This document shows positions 15,912 to 38,680 of a stretch of 64,000 nt of DNA, in pieces. Position 1 is the first letter of the stretch, and each line of letters opens with the position of its first letter. The notes under the pieces are model-generated. The model worked only from the letters and a program-made list of their open reading frames with translations. It was not told the DNA's origin and did not search any database. Source of the DNA: Podaxis mareebaensis (taxonomy: Eukaryota > Basidiomycota > Agaricomycetes > Agaricales > Agaricaceae); the NCBI GenBank assembly GCA_018524725.1, contig JAEUWP010000207.1:558001-622000 (forward strand). Direction: 5' to 3'. The translations under genes were made by a program, and so were the position numbers.

Positions 15912-16664
15912 AGAGGAAAGGAATAAAAGAGATGGCCTAGGTGGCCGCCATCCCCGTTGCTGATGGTCTCCTTGTCACACCACCTTCCCACGCTCTACTT
16001 CTGACCTTCATCCCCTAATAAACCAACTCAACTTTCGATGCGAGCTCGTTGCCTGCCGTATCGATCAGAGGCCGATATAATTGTCCAACGCCTGCCCTTT
16101 CGTTTCACTTTTGGAGGTCATATCCGCATGTTGTTGAAGCAAATGTTCTTTCACTATGTAGCAACTCTCTTTCCGGGATCAAGGACCTCTCCTGACTCCT
16201 AGGTCCTAGTCACGTTCTCGTCGTTACTTATATAGTGCCAGAAGCGAATGTCTGGGGCCAGTAGCACCTATCAGCAGGACACCACCCCTTGTCAGGAGGA
16301 TGCCATAGCTAAAATACGCCCAACGAGCGGATGATCGATGATCTTTTGAACCTTCTGCTTCACTTCGAGGTTGAGTCCCGAGAGCTCAAACGCTCAAGGA
16401 TTCTACAACCAAAAATCAGCGATTACTTCGGTACTTGACACCGCTTGGCATCCGTTGTGATATTTCGGGTTCCATCCAAAAACTCCTGAGTGTAGCTTCC
16501 GGGGGCATGATGGGCTTTTTTGATGACGGGCGACGCGCTGAACAAGAAGCGCTCAAATCCGATTGTCCCTCTCCACCAGCCTCGTGTCTTCCTGTGCCGG
16601 CATAAGGGCTTGTCTCCTTGGGTCGTCCTCTTCTTTCCTCCTTATCCCACCTCACAGCGCCAAG
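15912..16664. promoter_or_regulatory. Divergent intergenic region
   Basis: 750 bases between the start of the Cys-rich membrane protein (minus) and the Smr gene (plus); holds both promoters. No gene or RNA recognised. Confidence 0.45.
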
Positions 16665-17727
16665 ATGCTTGGGCTCCTCAAGACCATCTACAACTTTTTT
16701 TGTGGCAGCACCGAATCGAAACCGCAGTCCCCGCCTCCCCAGCAGCAGTATCAACAGCATTATCCGCAATATCAACATCAACAACAACAGCAACACTGGC
16801 AACGACCTCCTGCTGAGAGCAGACCGCAGCATGTTCCTCAGAAGCCACAGAAGCCATATGTCCAGCAGTATCAACAACAGCCTCCGCAGCCTCCACAGAA
16901 ACCTACTCATTATGGTGCTATACCCTATAACAAGGTCTGTCACAGCCGCCTTGTTTACTATACAACTAGTCGATCAACCTGCGGACTTTTGACAGGACCA
17001 GAATCTAATTAACCAGCAAAACCCCCATTACGTCTCGCTTCGTAGCCAGGCGAATGAGGAAGGCGATCTTATGGCCAAATGCTTTGAGGAGAGCCACCAA
17101 GCCTATGAGAGACGCGATGGTGCTCTTGCAAAAGAGCTTTCCAACAAGGGCAAGCAACACCAAAAACGTATGGAAGAGCTAAACAAACAGGCTAGCGACT
17201 GGATTTTCGCTGGTAAGGACTCTTTCCCTTTTGCAAAATGGAGGTCTGATATATGGTATACATCACCGGTTTCAGAGAACAACAAAGTTCGTTCAATTCT
17301 CTTCAGTTCCCATTTTCAGCCTGCTTAGAGCCTGTAACAGGACAGTGGCCCGCACGAAATTGACCTCCACGGTCTATACGTCAAGGAAGCTATCACCTAC
17401 ACGGAACGTGCCCTTCAACGGGCTCGGGCACGAGGCGACAGGGAGATCCACCTTATTGTCGGCAAAGGTCTTCACTCCAAGAATGGTGCTGCCAAGATCA
17501 AGCCTGCAATCGAAGAGCTTATGCAGAAGTATGTTATCTCCATCGTTCCTTAATTCCCGCTTATATTGTTCCTGATTCTTTAAAGGTACCAGCTTTCCGC
17601 GGAACTTGACCCGAACAATGCCGGCGTTCTTATCGTTCAACTTGACTCCACACGCGGCCGTGGTGTGGGTGCCGATGAAATTGCACGTCGTATCGAGCGT
17701 AGCGACGATGGTTGCCTCATCATGTAA
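16665..17727 (+). CDS. DUF1771-Smr domain protein with C-terminal CaaX-like box
   Basis: Small protein of the eukaryotic DUF1771+Smr family; Smr domains act as nucleases or nucleic-acid-binding modules, and family members are linked to mRNA quality control and DNA processing. Five exons: 16665-16934, 16996-17212, a micro-exon of 11 bases at 17276-17286, 17341-17528, 17586-17727 (275 residues). The N-terminus (MLGLLKTIYNFFCG) is followed by a Gln/Pro-rich linker. DUF1771 covers about residues 100-165 (QNPHYVSLRSQANEEGDLM ... AKELSNKGKQHQKRMEEL). The Smr domain starts EIDLHGLYVKEAI (DLHG motif) and includes HLIVGKGLHSKNGAAKI (GKGxHS motif). The last four residues before TAA are CLIM, a CaaX-type farnesylation signal. 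All junctions keep frame, including the micro-exon (ENNK). Function in this organism is inference. Confidence 0.9.
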
Positions 17728-18094
17728 AGCCTACGGTGTGTTCATTAACGTTGTGGTACCCTTTGACCGTCACGGCCCATCTCTTTTGATCGAATTGTGT
17801 ATAATAATGTATCTGCTACGTCTTGAAATCCAAATCTTTGAATACGAGCATAGTTATACCCAGTTGAAGGCAGTGGCTACAAGAGAGGTGGTATATATGA
17901 TTACAGGAGGGATGTGGAAAGATAAGGAGAAAGAAGAATGATGAAGCATAAATCGAAACAAGCGAAAGCTTTCTTATTTAGGTATTATCTCCTCGTCGCA
18001 TCCTATAGTTCAATGCACGAAACAGACCCCATTTTTCCCTTCCCAAGTTGACGGAAACCAATCCCTCACCTTTCAACAATCCTTACCGATCACT
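17728..18094. other. Convergent intergenic region
   Basis: 3' ends of the Smr gene (plus) and the antizyme gene (minus). A/T-rich, no gene seen. Confidence 0.5.
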
Positions 18095-19419
18095 TCAAAT
18101 TTCCAAGCCAACGAGGACAAACGCGGGGTCGACTGCGAAAGGAGGCTTTGTAACAACTGAACCACCGACATACATCAAAGCATGCAGCAACTCGCCCAAG
18201 TTGGGTGCGGACCGCTCCAAGACAATAACCAGGGCACTGCAGTCTAGATTCTCCGAAGCTAAATCTAGTAATGCCACAATGCTACACAAAGGAAGAACAT
18301 GTGAGTAAACTTTCGGGGACTGAGGAGCAGGTGACCACCATGATCCGTCCCACTTATGGCGAAGGACAAGACAATAGATGTGGGGGACGTACCTTTCACG
18401 GAGATTAACTGAAGCCGCATTTTTGCCATCCACATACAGCGTCTTGGGTTTTCCAGGTAATTCAAGAACGACACCCTCAAACGCCGCGCCAAAGGTAGGT
18501 GCAGAGATAGAAACGCTTTTCGAGTGAGGTAAGGCCTTGAGTCCGTCCTTCGGGAATATGGTCATCAAATAGTCCAAGGCATCCTGAGATTGAGTACCGG
18601 GCCTCGTTTTGGACCCAGCTGGAGTATATCCCGTGGGCTTGGTGGACTCGAGCGCAATGCTGTCGATGCTGCCGCCGCTACTATAGCTGCCGTCGTCCGG
18701 AGTCAATGGGGGTGTAGAAAAGCCCGAGGAACTGGTGCTTGAGCCAGAGCGAGCCGGAGCAGGAATAGGACGTGAAGTAACCGTAGTGATGGTTGAAAGA
18801 GCCCTACCATTACTGCGGTGTGGTTGCTGGAATCTTCCGTGGGTATAGTCGATGGTGGTGATGGGAGCAGCTTTTGTTGGAGAACAAGCGATGCTCTTTG
18901 TGAACACCCTCGTGCCGGAAACAGAAGTGGGTGAGGTAGAGAAAGAGGAAGGAGGAGAGGAGCAAATGGAGGGGGATGGAGAGGAGAAGTACGACGCCGG
19001 ACTGCCTGTCACACAATCCGACGACCCTCTGTCTGGAGGGCATTTACTCTTAGGGGCGTCAAAAGCGCCACTTTATCAGATGAAAAGTGATAAATACGAA
19101 AAGCACGAGGCAGAAAAGAGGCAGAGGGTTGCAGGAGGAAGTGGTGAGTTTGCGGAACGAAAACAGAGAATGGATGGTCTTACCCCAGGTCCCCCAGAGA
19201 ACGTGGTGGAGTAGTAGTACATGTCATCGTTGCCCTCTAGGTGGCAGACGGCGAGCACGCTAGGCACGGAGGTGTCGAAAGAAGCAGCCCCATCTCCAAC
19301 GCTTTGACGAGCGTTGCTGCACGAAATACCGGTATGAGCATCAGGTGCAAAAGAAATCAAAGCGAAATGGTAACATACGTGGGGCGAAGACTAGATTGTT
19401 GATTTGTAAAATTCGACAT
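18095..19419 (-). CDS. OAZ1: Ornithine decarboxylase antizyme, expressed by +1 ribosomal frameshift
   Basis: Antizyme binds ornithine decarboxylase and sends it to the proteasome without ubiquitin, closing the polyamine feedback loop. Seen: ORF1 starts at 19419 (MSNFTNQQSSLRP), is spliced 19379-19419 / 19184-19316 / from 19070, and ends GGPG-WRF then TGA at 19059-19061 (61 codons). If one base is skipped at TTT-TGA-C, translation continues GAC GCC CCT AAG (DAPK), the same place and reading as in animal antizymes, into ORF2 (284 codons; exons 18393-19070 and 18095-18281). ORF2 holds a Ser/Thr/Pro-rich spacer and the conserved antizyme fold: DALDYLMTIFP, GVVLELPGKPKTLYVDG, ESIVALLDLASENLDCSALV, and the end GGSVVTKPPFAVDPAFVLVG LEI. 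Total 345 residues after the shift, longer than usual because of the spacer. The shift is expected to rise with polyamines. A standard caller will truncate or wrongly splice this gene. Confidence 0.9.
19058..19064 (-). promoter_or_regulatory. Programmed +1 frameshift site (TTT TGA C) of antizyme
   Basis: Coding-strand codons CGC TTT TGA C: the zero frame stops at TGA (19059-19061); skipping the T gives GAC GCC CCT in the +1 frame, which is open to the antizyme C-terminus. It lies 9 bases after a splice acceptor, so the site only forms in spliced mRNA. TGA followed by C is a weak stop context. Confidence 0.85.
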
Positions 19420-19988
19420 GGTACTTAGTGACATATCGTGCCAACTTGGTAACTTGGAAGGGGGGAGAAAGTGCAAGAGTTTGGTCGAGTATTTCAACTG
19501 CAATAAAAAATCAGCGGTGTGATGGCAGGAAAATGAAGCCGAATAGAACTCACAGTGGTGGTGGGAACGGGATAAGCCAGCGAACGCCCAATCGTGCCTG
19601 ACGCTACCCACTTGTCTCAGGCTGACTAAGCCGGCTCACTCCTCCTCACACGTGATGTCGCCGCTTGCCGATTCCCACGCTTGCCACCCGCGACTAAGGA
19701 TGTGGTACCGAAATCAGGCCAACAAAAGGGCAAGAGAGCTCAACGCCGTCCCCAACAGCGACCTCAAGACTGTGAGTGCCAGTTTTTGACACTATGCAAC
19801 TTCAAGGTGCACGATCTTCTTCGGTGGGCCGGTTTGAATGGCTGGAATGCTGGCTTTCGGGTGGATGTTGCTGCAAGTTTATGGATAGACTCTGGAGGGA
19901 TCACTTGCACCAGGGAGCTCTGCACTCGATTAAGCGATGAACTGACGTTCAGACCCATGCAGTTTCCGACTCTCAATAAACCCAAAAA
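19420..19988. promoter_or_regulatory. Divergent promoter region, antizyme / RPS2
   Basis: About 570 bases between the antizyme start (minus) and RPS2 start (plus). It must hold a strong ribosomal-protein promoter. A plus-strand open frame running through it into RPS2 exon 1 (from 19681) is in the wrong frame for RPS2 and is taken as leader sequence. Confidence 0.5.
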
Positions 19989-20862
19989 ATGGCTGACGCT
20001 CCCCGAGGACGTGGTGGATTTGGGCGTGGACGCGGCGAGCGCGGCAGGGGCCGCCGTGGACCCCGCCGTGGCGGTCGCAAGGAAGAGGACAAGGAGTGGT
20101 ATGGGACCTATACTGACTGAAGGAAACGGTGATCTCACATTGGTGTAGGGTCCCCGTCACTAAGCTCGGTCGTCTCGTGAAGGACGGAAAGATCAAGTCA
20201 ATGGAGGAAATCTATCTCTTCTCCCTCCCGGTCAAGGAGTACCAGATCATCGACTTCTTCCTCCCCAAACTCAAGGACGAGGTCATGAAGATTATGCCAG
20301 TGCAAAAGCAAACCCGTGCCGGTCAGCGCACGCGTTTCAAGGCCTTTGTTGCCATTGGTGACTTTGACGGTCACGTCGGTCTCGGTGTCAAGTGCGCAAA
20401 GGAAGTCGCAACTGCCATCCGTGGTGCTATTATTCTGGCGAAGCTCTCTGTCATTCCTGTCCGTCGTGGCTACTGGGGTGCCGCTCTTGGTGAGCCCCAC
20501 ACTGTACCCTCCAAGGTCAGTGGCAAGGTTGGATCGGTCATGTGCCGTCTGATCCCTGCTCCCCGCGGAACTGGTATCGTCGCTGCACCGGCGTCGAAGC
20601 GTCTGCTGCAACTTGCTGGTGTTGAGGATGTTTACACGCAATCGAAAGGTTCGACAGCGACGATGGGTAATTTCTTGAAGGCTACATTTGCTGCTGTGAG
20701 TGGATGGGCGACGGTTCGAGTTGGGACAGTTGCTGATATACAGGGCAGATCACCAAGACTTATGCATTCCTTACACCTGATTTGTGGCGAGAGATTCCTC
20801 TATCGAAACTGCCATACGACGAGTACAGTGCCCATCTTGCACTTGCGGCCAAGAAGTACTAG
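19989..20862 (+). CDS. RPS2: 40S ribosomal protein S2 (uS5)
   Basis: Core protein of the small ribosomal subunit, near the mRNA entry site, important for decoding accuracy. Three exons: 19989-20098, 20149-20695, 20749-20862 (256 residues, as in other eukaryotes). Seen: N-terminal RGG-rich tail ([20 protein letters not shown]), a usual arginine-methylation target; [16 protein letters not shown]; the S5 core [20 protein letters not shown] and [40 protein letters not shown]; and the C-terminal [18 protein letters not shown], ending LALAAKKY. Identity is certain. Introns are 50 and 53 bases, with donors GTATGG and GTGAGT. Confidence 0.97.
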
Positions 20863-21029
20863 ATCCTTGCTGTAGTCTAAAATTCGCTAGCTGTCCATGC
20901 ATTTTTTTTTGATATAAAAGGCGAGGTTCCTTCCCGATATGGCAAGACAAGTGGGTGAGCAAGGAAGAACGCGAATAATTCTGAATAAATTCTACCATTT
21001 TGTGCGTATGCCTTTCCACTACCTAGTTA

Positions 21030-38512: not shown

Positions 38513-38590
38513 GGCGCTATAGTGTAGTGGTTATCACTCAGGATTCTGATGAACATTCCTGAAACCCAGGTTCGAACCCTGGTAGCGCCT
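38513..38590 (+). tRNA. tRNA-Gln (anticodon CTG) with a 6-base intron
   Basis: Complete cloverleaf: acceptor GGCGCTA pairs with TAGCGCC (38583-38589), discriminator T; D arm GTG..CAC; anticodon stem CAGGA/TCCTG; T arm CCAGG-TTCGAAC-CCTGG; variable loop AAAC. Loop TTCTGA gives T33 and anticodon CTG at 38546-38548. After A37 there are six extra bases (TGAACA, 38550-38555) before base 38, taken as an intron at the canonical 37/38 site. A box (TAGTGTAGTGG) and B box (GGTTCGAACCC) are intact, and a T-rich terminator follows at about 38604-38610. Confidence 0.92.
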
Positions 38591-38680
38591 CTGTGCAAGC
38601 GTTTGTTTTTGTGACCTCCATGCTCGGGACACCCAGCAAAGCTCTTGGATACTATTCATACACAAAACAAAAATGGGTAA

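Follow-up and report, generated by a model that had tools for sequence, protein, structure and literature searches.

In our study, a stretch of 64,000 nucleotides of Podaxis mareebaensis (assembly GCA_018524725.1, contig JAEUWP010000207.1, 558,001 to 622,000), here called the window, was found to contain a four-exon gene on the minus strand, from nucleotide 19434 to 18095. All coordinates are window positions. The gene is almost certainly the ornithine decarboxylase (ODC) antizyme of an agaric mushroom, the sole one found in the genome (one match), with a +1 frameshift at UUU-UGA. It is an ordinary mushroom antizyme, and its shift site has already been described for this class of fungi. The antizyme reading was based on the anatomy of the gene, its homology, the presence of the control elements, and the splicing pattern of the relatives.

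Exon 1 of the first open reading frame (ORF1) was present at 19379–19434 and exon 2 at 19184–19316, followed by exon 3 (18393–19070), which contained module A, the shift site, and the first portion of the second open reading frame (ORF2), and exon 4 (18095–18281), which contained the end of ORF2 with its ODC_AZ match and the stop codon TGA at 18097-18095; all of these features, and those that follow for this gene, are on the minus strand. The three introns were all of the GT...AG type. Intron 1 (19317–19378; GTATGT...CAG) was 62 nucleotides long and cut the 5' arm of a 14-bp RNA stem into seven and seven nucleotides. Intron 2 (19071–19183; GTAAGA...AAAG) was 113 nucleotides long and was present between codon -4 (GGG) and codon -3 (TGG). 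Intron 3 (18282–18392; GTACGT...TAG) was 111 nucleotides long and in frame, and its start was, from the coordinates, 666 nucleotides 3' of the ORF1 stop. Because the 111 bases are a multiple of three and free of stop codons, ORF2 also appears open in genomic DNA. The original prediction started the gene at the ATG at 19419, which is the second in-frame ATG. The ATG at 19434 (MSLSTMSN...) is more likely the start, since several relatives retained an MSLxxMSN-type start and the resulting ORF1 of 66 amino acids has the length reported for Ganoderma (PMC9604110; here as below, published work is cited from part of its text). Between 19435 and 19990 on this strand the only ATG was found at 19958, close to the divergent, presumed ribosomal-protein gene, and no upstream open reading frame is claimed.

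The spliced ORF1 contained 66 codons and ended in YYYSTTFSGGPG, followed across the intron 2 junction by WRF-TGA. The shift site TTT-TGA was present at 19059–19064 (TTT at 19064-19062, TGA at 19061-19059). When the T is skipped and GAC is read, GAC GCC CCT AAG (DAPK) follows, and the frame DAPKSKCPPDR... remains open to the TGA at 18097-18095, giving a full shifted product of 350 residues. The ORF1 end GGPG-WRF-TGA and the opening of the antizyme frame by a one-base skip, as originally predicted, were thus both seen in the spliced model, and the intron 2 acceptor was found exactly nine bases 5' of TGA, as had been stated, with exon 3 beginning TGG CGC TTT TGA at 19070. The ORF2 frame begins with the GAC at 19060 and not, as had been given, at 19056. 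It had also been claimed that no shift site is present before splicing. This was not the case: exon 3 alone contains the whole of TTT-TGA-C, which is contiguous in the genome, and splicing does not create it. Splicing does create the junction of the nascent-peptide codons with module A, and it sets the reading frame in which ORF1 ends at the TGA at 19061-19059; the unspliced ORF1 frame ended at a TGA at 19078-19076, near the 3' end of intron 2. The choice of TTT as the shift codon had been regarded as notable. It is not new, because UUU-UGA is published as the rule in Agaricomycetes: it was found in every one of the 35 antizyme mRNAs carrying the 5' element, 34 from Agaricomycetes and one from a Dacrymycete, in the study of Yordanova et al. 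(2015; PMC4505036), and the UUU site is repeated for this fungal group in a review (PMC5009743).

ORF2 carried the ODC_AZ domain (PF02100, E 2.2e-9), and the shifted protein matched 426 database proteins; on these two grounds the antizyme reading is beyond chance, and the identity named in the original prediction held. Leucocoprinus and Leucoagaricus were the nearest database relatives among the matches listed. The Protein Data Bank (PDB) returned nothing by sequence at E up to 1, and a search of it by fold, using the relative P0006, returned human antizyme with the ODC_AZ fold. ORF2 without antizyme similarity would have spoken against the prediction; similarity was found by sequence and, via this relative, by fold. 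No relative of the antizyme was found in a search of viral contigs. An ODC-type decarboxylase had one match in the genome, which is consistent with ODC binding and destabilisation by the antizyme.

The stimulatory elements were found on both sides of the shift site. The nascent-peptide codons (YYYSTTFSGGP, 11 residues, codons -15 to -5) were present at 19187–19219, their position and role being known from PMC4505036, and the exact peptide was found in 91 of 112 database models. These models are the 120 proteins listed of the 426 matches, minus 8 from assembled contigs, and were classed by pattern. Module A (TGG CGC, 19065–19070), also known from PMC4505036, formed the first six bases of exon 3, and the removal of intron 2 brings the nascent-peptide codons next to it. 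The 3' stimulator (18995–19045) contained AAAU followed by stem 1 (19041-19024) and, directly adjacent, stem 2 (19023-18995, with the 7-nucleotide loop GUGACAG); stem 1 began 19 nucleotides after UUU-U, and the folding energy was -26.1 kcal/mol (z -4.0; none of 200 shuffled sequences folded as well). In the spliced mRNA, a 14-bp 5' stem was predicted at 19287–19385, where 19385-19379 joined to 19316-19310 pairs with 19303-19296 and 19292-19287. It ended 109 nucleotides 5' of TTT (-24.3 kcal/mol, z -5.0). The unspliced 5' region folded otherwise (-34.0 kcal/mol, z -2.5); of the 14 stem pairs, the lower six were retained and the upper eight were absent. Intron 1 therefore does not fully abolish the 5' stem on paper, because the lower six pairs persist. 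An Ala-Val dipeptide was found in ORF1 (VLAVCH), with a similar string in 103 of the 112 models. No Rfam family matched 17600-20000 at E up to 0.1.

The introns of the relatives were found at the same places as in Podaxis mareebaensis. We compared 49 proteins of assembled contigs, pooled from searches favouring certain forms (the spliced +1 frame and the fused ORF1 frame), so that frequencies are not readable from them; the set includes the 8 contig proteins set aside above, and P0143 was also present in an ncbi source. At junction 2, 23 proteins appeared spliced, and every one of them continued through the shift site; 24 carried intron 2 sequence, and two (P0014, P0045) were uninformative. 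Junctions 2 and 3 always agreed where both were visible (22 both spliced, 21 both unspliced): intron 3 was removed in the 22 proteins with junction 3 spliced and was seen in 21 of the 24 carrying intron 2. This is as expected if the contigs spliced at both junctions are cDNA and the unspliced ones are genomic, an origin suggested by the agreement of the two junctions in every case. Joining of the frames without a frameshift, the other outcome that would have contradicted the prediction, was found in none of the 23 transcript-like proteins. Intron 1 was read through at the same place in four relatives (P0147, P0151, P0171, P0172), and seven more contig proteins started inside it. The +1-frame peptides of 22 spliced contig proteins were compared with DNA that also encodes YYYSTTFSGGPGWRF and a stop. 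The fit was full in 20 of the 22, and GWRF with its stop fitted in 21, whereas 0 of 200 shuffled peptides fitted in the control, which was run on P0006 only.

P0158, with WRFW at the shift site, was considered as a loss of the stop and rejected. Against the +1 frame of P0155, five of its seven W residues fitted only TGA and two were without a partner; the record was therefore most likely translated with TGA as Trp. The ungapped run between the two proteins breaks at residue 18 even when TGA is allowed, as they are two different sequences. P0169 likewise showed WRFW at the shift site.

Several points weigh against the reading given here. The 5' stem, at -24.3 kcal/mol, fell short of the 30 kcal/mol or more given in PMC4505036. 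The P0006-type contigs are presumably cDNA, since introns 2 and 3 are both missing from them. Two relatives, P0125 (at codon -4) and P0138 (further up), deviated from the exact peptide, and the +1-frame peptides of the relatives are compatible with TTT-TGA and are not proof of each base. The splicing pattern was taken from the relatives, and no transcript of Podaxis mareebaensis itself was seen.

The original prediction expected automatic annotation of the gene to be wrong, and the database models bore this out. The frameshift was kept in only one of the 112 models, the Ganoderma record P0027, which reads WRF-DLP and is most likely a cloned cDNA. One hundred models bridged the frames by varying introns or retained intron sequence: the acceptor was moved down in 22, the donor was moved up in 7 and down in 22, the intron end was kept in 17, and another deeper acceptor was used in 32. 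The remaining models contained the ORF2 frame only (4) or were placed by the pattern classing among the others (7), with the near-variants P0017, P0026, and P0053. Because the bridging modes scatter, they argue for annotation artefacts and not for one real in-frame splice form. Public gene models of the antizyme are thus very often wrong.

The most specific alternative is that splicing itself joins the frames, as a constitutive or minor isoform. An acceptor 22 nucleotides downstream (CCTAAG at 19049) would remove the shift site and join GGPG to SKCPPDR. This join is open (343 amino acids), and joins of this kind were used by 22 of the 112 models, among them P0002 and P0003, the two nearest relatives. 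Branch sequences follow the consensus CTRAY. By eye, a CTRAY-like CTGAT lies at a spacing that suits 19049 better than the 19071 acceptor, to which it is very near. However, at least four other solutions were found at this step among the remaining models, a variety expected of automatic annotation, and no join of this kind appeared in the 17 assembled-contig matches obtained with P0003 residues 1-90, a stretch that itself contains the join. The residue whose codon gives the AG of 19049 was K in only 58 of the 101 sequences in which it is visible, T in 23, N in 15, and another in 5, while the shift site was kept; this count leans against K, as the models with the 19049-kind join hide the residue. 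Under such splicing the conservation of WRF-TGA would also have no reason. Alternative donors and acceptors joining the frames without a shift were enumerated; many were open on paper and none was seen in the transcript-like relatives. We consider this alternative very unlikely.

Retention of intron 2, giving in some species a frame-fused antizyme that bypasses polyamines, is extremely unlikely. Intron 2 was free of stops in the ORF1 frame, with ORF1 running into ORF2, in 15 contig proteins (P0137, P0146, P0147, P0150, P0151, P0153, P0155, P0156, P0161, P0167, P0171, P0174, P0176, P0178, P0179), and the length of 113 in the window would also join the two frames. However, the window intron closes with an in-frame TGA TAA at its very end, and non-joining lengths were found in P0048, P0141, P0143, P0144, P0149, P0169, and P0172. 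Some of these are by eye close kin of joining relatives, so that the joining length is not conserved, and the searches favoured long open frames, so that no enrichment of joining lengths can be claimed. The two frames and the stop within the coding region would also be found in a pseudogene or after a sequencing frameshift. This possibility is close to nil and already contradicted: one copy was found in the genome with no intact one-frame copy found there, and the same stop and frame change were present at the same codon in the relatives and in the Ganoderma cDNA, together with conserved flanking elements.

For the antizyme with a programmed shift, the removal of three introns would give an mRNA with the 66-codon ORF1. 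When a ribosome reaches the last codon of ORF1, UUU would occupy the P site and the UGA stop the A site, and a fraction of ribosomes would slip +1 and translate the antizyme domain from ORF2. Three elements would favour this slip: module A, the two RNA stems 19 nucleotides downstream, and the 11-residue nascent peptide while it is inside the exit tunnel. The slip would be greater at high polyamine, and the antizyme would then shut down ornithine decarboxylase. From the published work on Coprinopsis we infer that the shift occurs in Podaxis mareebaensis and responds to polyamines. With its clearly marked elements, the gene is a further example of a regulatory circuit that is already known.

The introns may also be part of the control, a tentative idea that we regard as rather unlikely. 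Intron 1 parts the 5' stem, and intron 2 lies between module A and the codons of the nascent peptide; the polyamine sensor would therefore be complete only in the fully spliced mRNA. Intron 3, kept in the relatives, might mark the mRNAs on which ribosomes end at ORF1 for nonsense-mediated decay. If so, high polyamines would raise both antizyme synthesis and antizyme mRNA. The decay idea is worth testing because the antizyme mRNA of Drosophila is a target of nonsense-mediated decay (PMC1756896). Intron function is a guess, and the introns may simply lie where they lie. Nothing on introns at the shift site was found in the titles and abstracts on antizyme introns or splicing among the matches listed, nor in the parts seen of PMC2375905, PMC12363938, and PMC9846516. 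What may be new is where the introns lie, introns 1 and 2 relative to the control elements and intron 3 relative to the ORF1 stop, an arrangement shared with the relatives. This common placement raises a testable question on splicing, decay, and recoding in one mRNA.

The antizyme gene lies head to head with a divergent neighbour on the plus strand (19990-20875), an open reading frame of 248 amino acids which, by eye, we take to be ribosomal protein uS5/RPS2. The convergent neighbour (16540-17720, plus strand) contained the segment IDLHGLYVKEA...IVGKGLHS, presumably an Smr domain, also by eye. At 38513-38591 on the plus strand, ARAGORN reported a probably spurious tRNA-like sequence whose anticodon (gatg) has four bases.

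Among the closest described systems is the antizyme gene of Coprinopsis cinerea, whose sequence was studied in mammalian cells, in work that describes antizyme as inhibiting ODC and uptake (PMC4505036). Both contain UUU-UGA, the 11-residue nascent peptide at codons -15 to -5, which stimulates a shift responding to polyamines there, module A, which matters for the shift, the invariant AAAU followed by two adjacent stem-loops from 19 nucleotides downstream, and the Ala-Val dipeptide. The 14-bp 5' stem is 106 nucleotides upstream in C. cinerea and 109 here, where it is the weaker (-24.3 kcal/mol against at least 30 kcal/mol). The words 'intron' and 'splic' were absent from the text consulted, whereas the present analysis gives the position of each intron with respect to these elements. 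GlAZ of Ganoderma lucidum (PMC9604110) is likewise a single gene with an ORF1 of 66 amino acids, a TTTGA site, YYYSTTFSGG, and the AV dipeptide, whereas its product contains 333 amino acids against 350 here and reads DLPTAK after the shift instead of DAPKSK; one Ganoderma gene model is noted there to hold a GT-AG intron region. Human OAZ1, a vertebrate antizyme 1, shares the ODC_AZ fold. Vertebrate antizyme 1 shifts +1 at the last ORF1 codon before UGA and continues with D-A-P, as predicted for the window gene, whereas its shift codon is UCC and its 3' element is a pseudoknot. Saccharomyces cerevisiae OAZ1 is also an antizyme with a +1 frameshift governed via the nascent peptide and polyamines. 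In yeast, however, the peptide signals are inhibitory and are located close to the ORF1 start and towards the end of ORF2 (PMC5009743).
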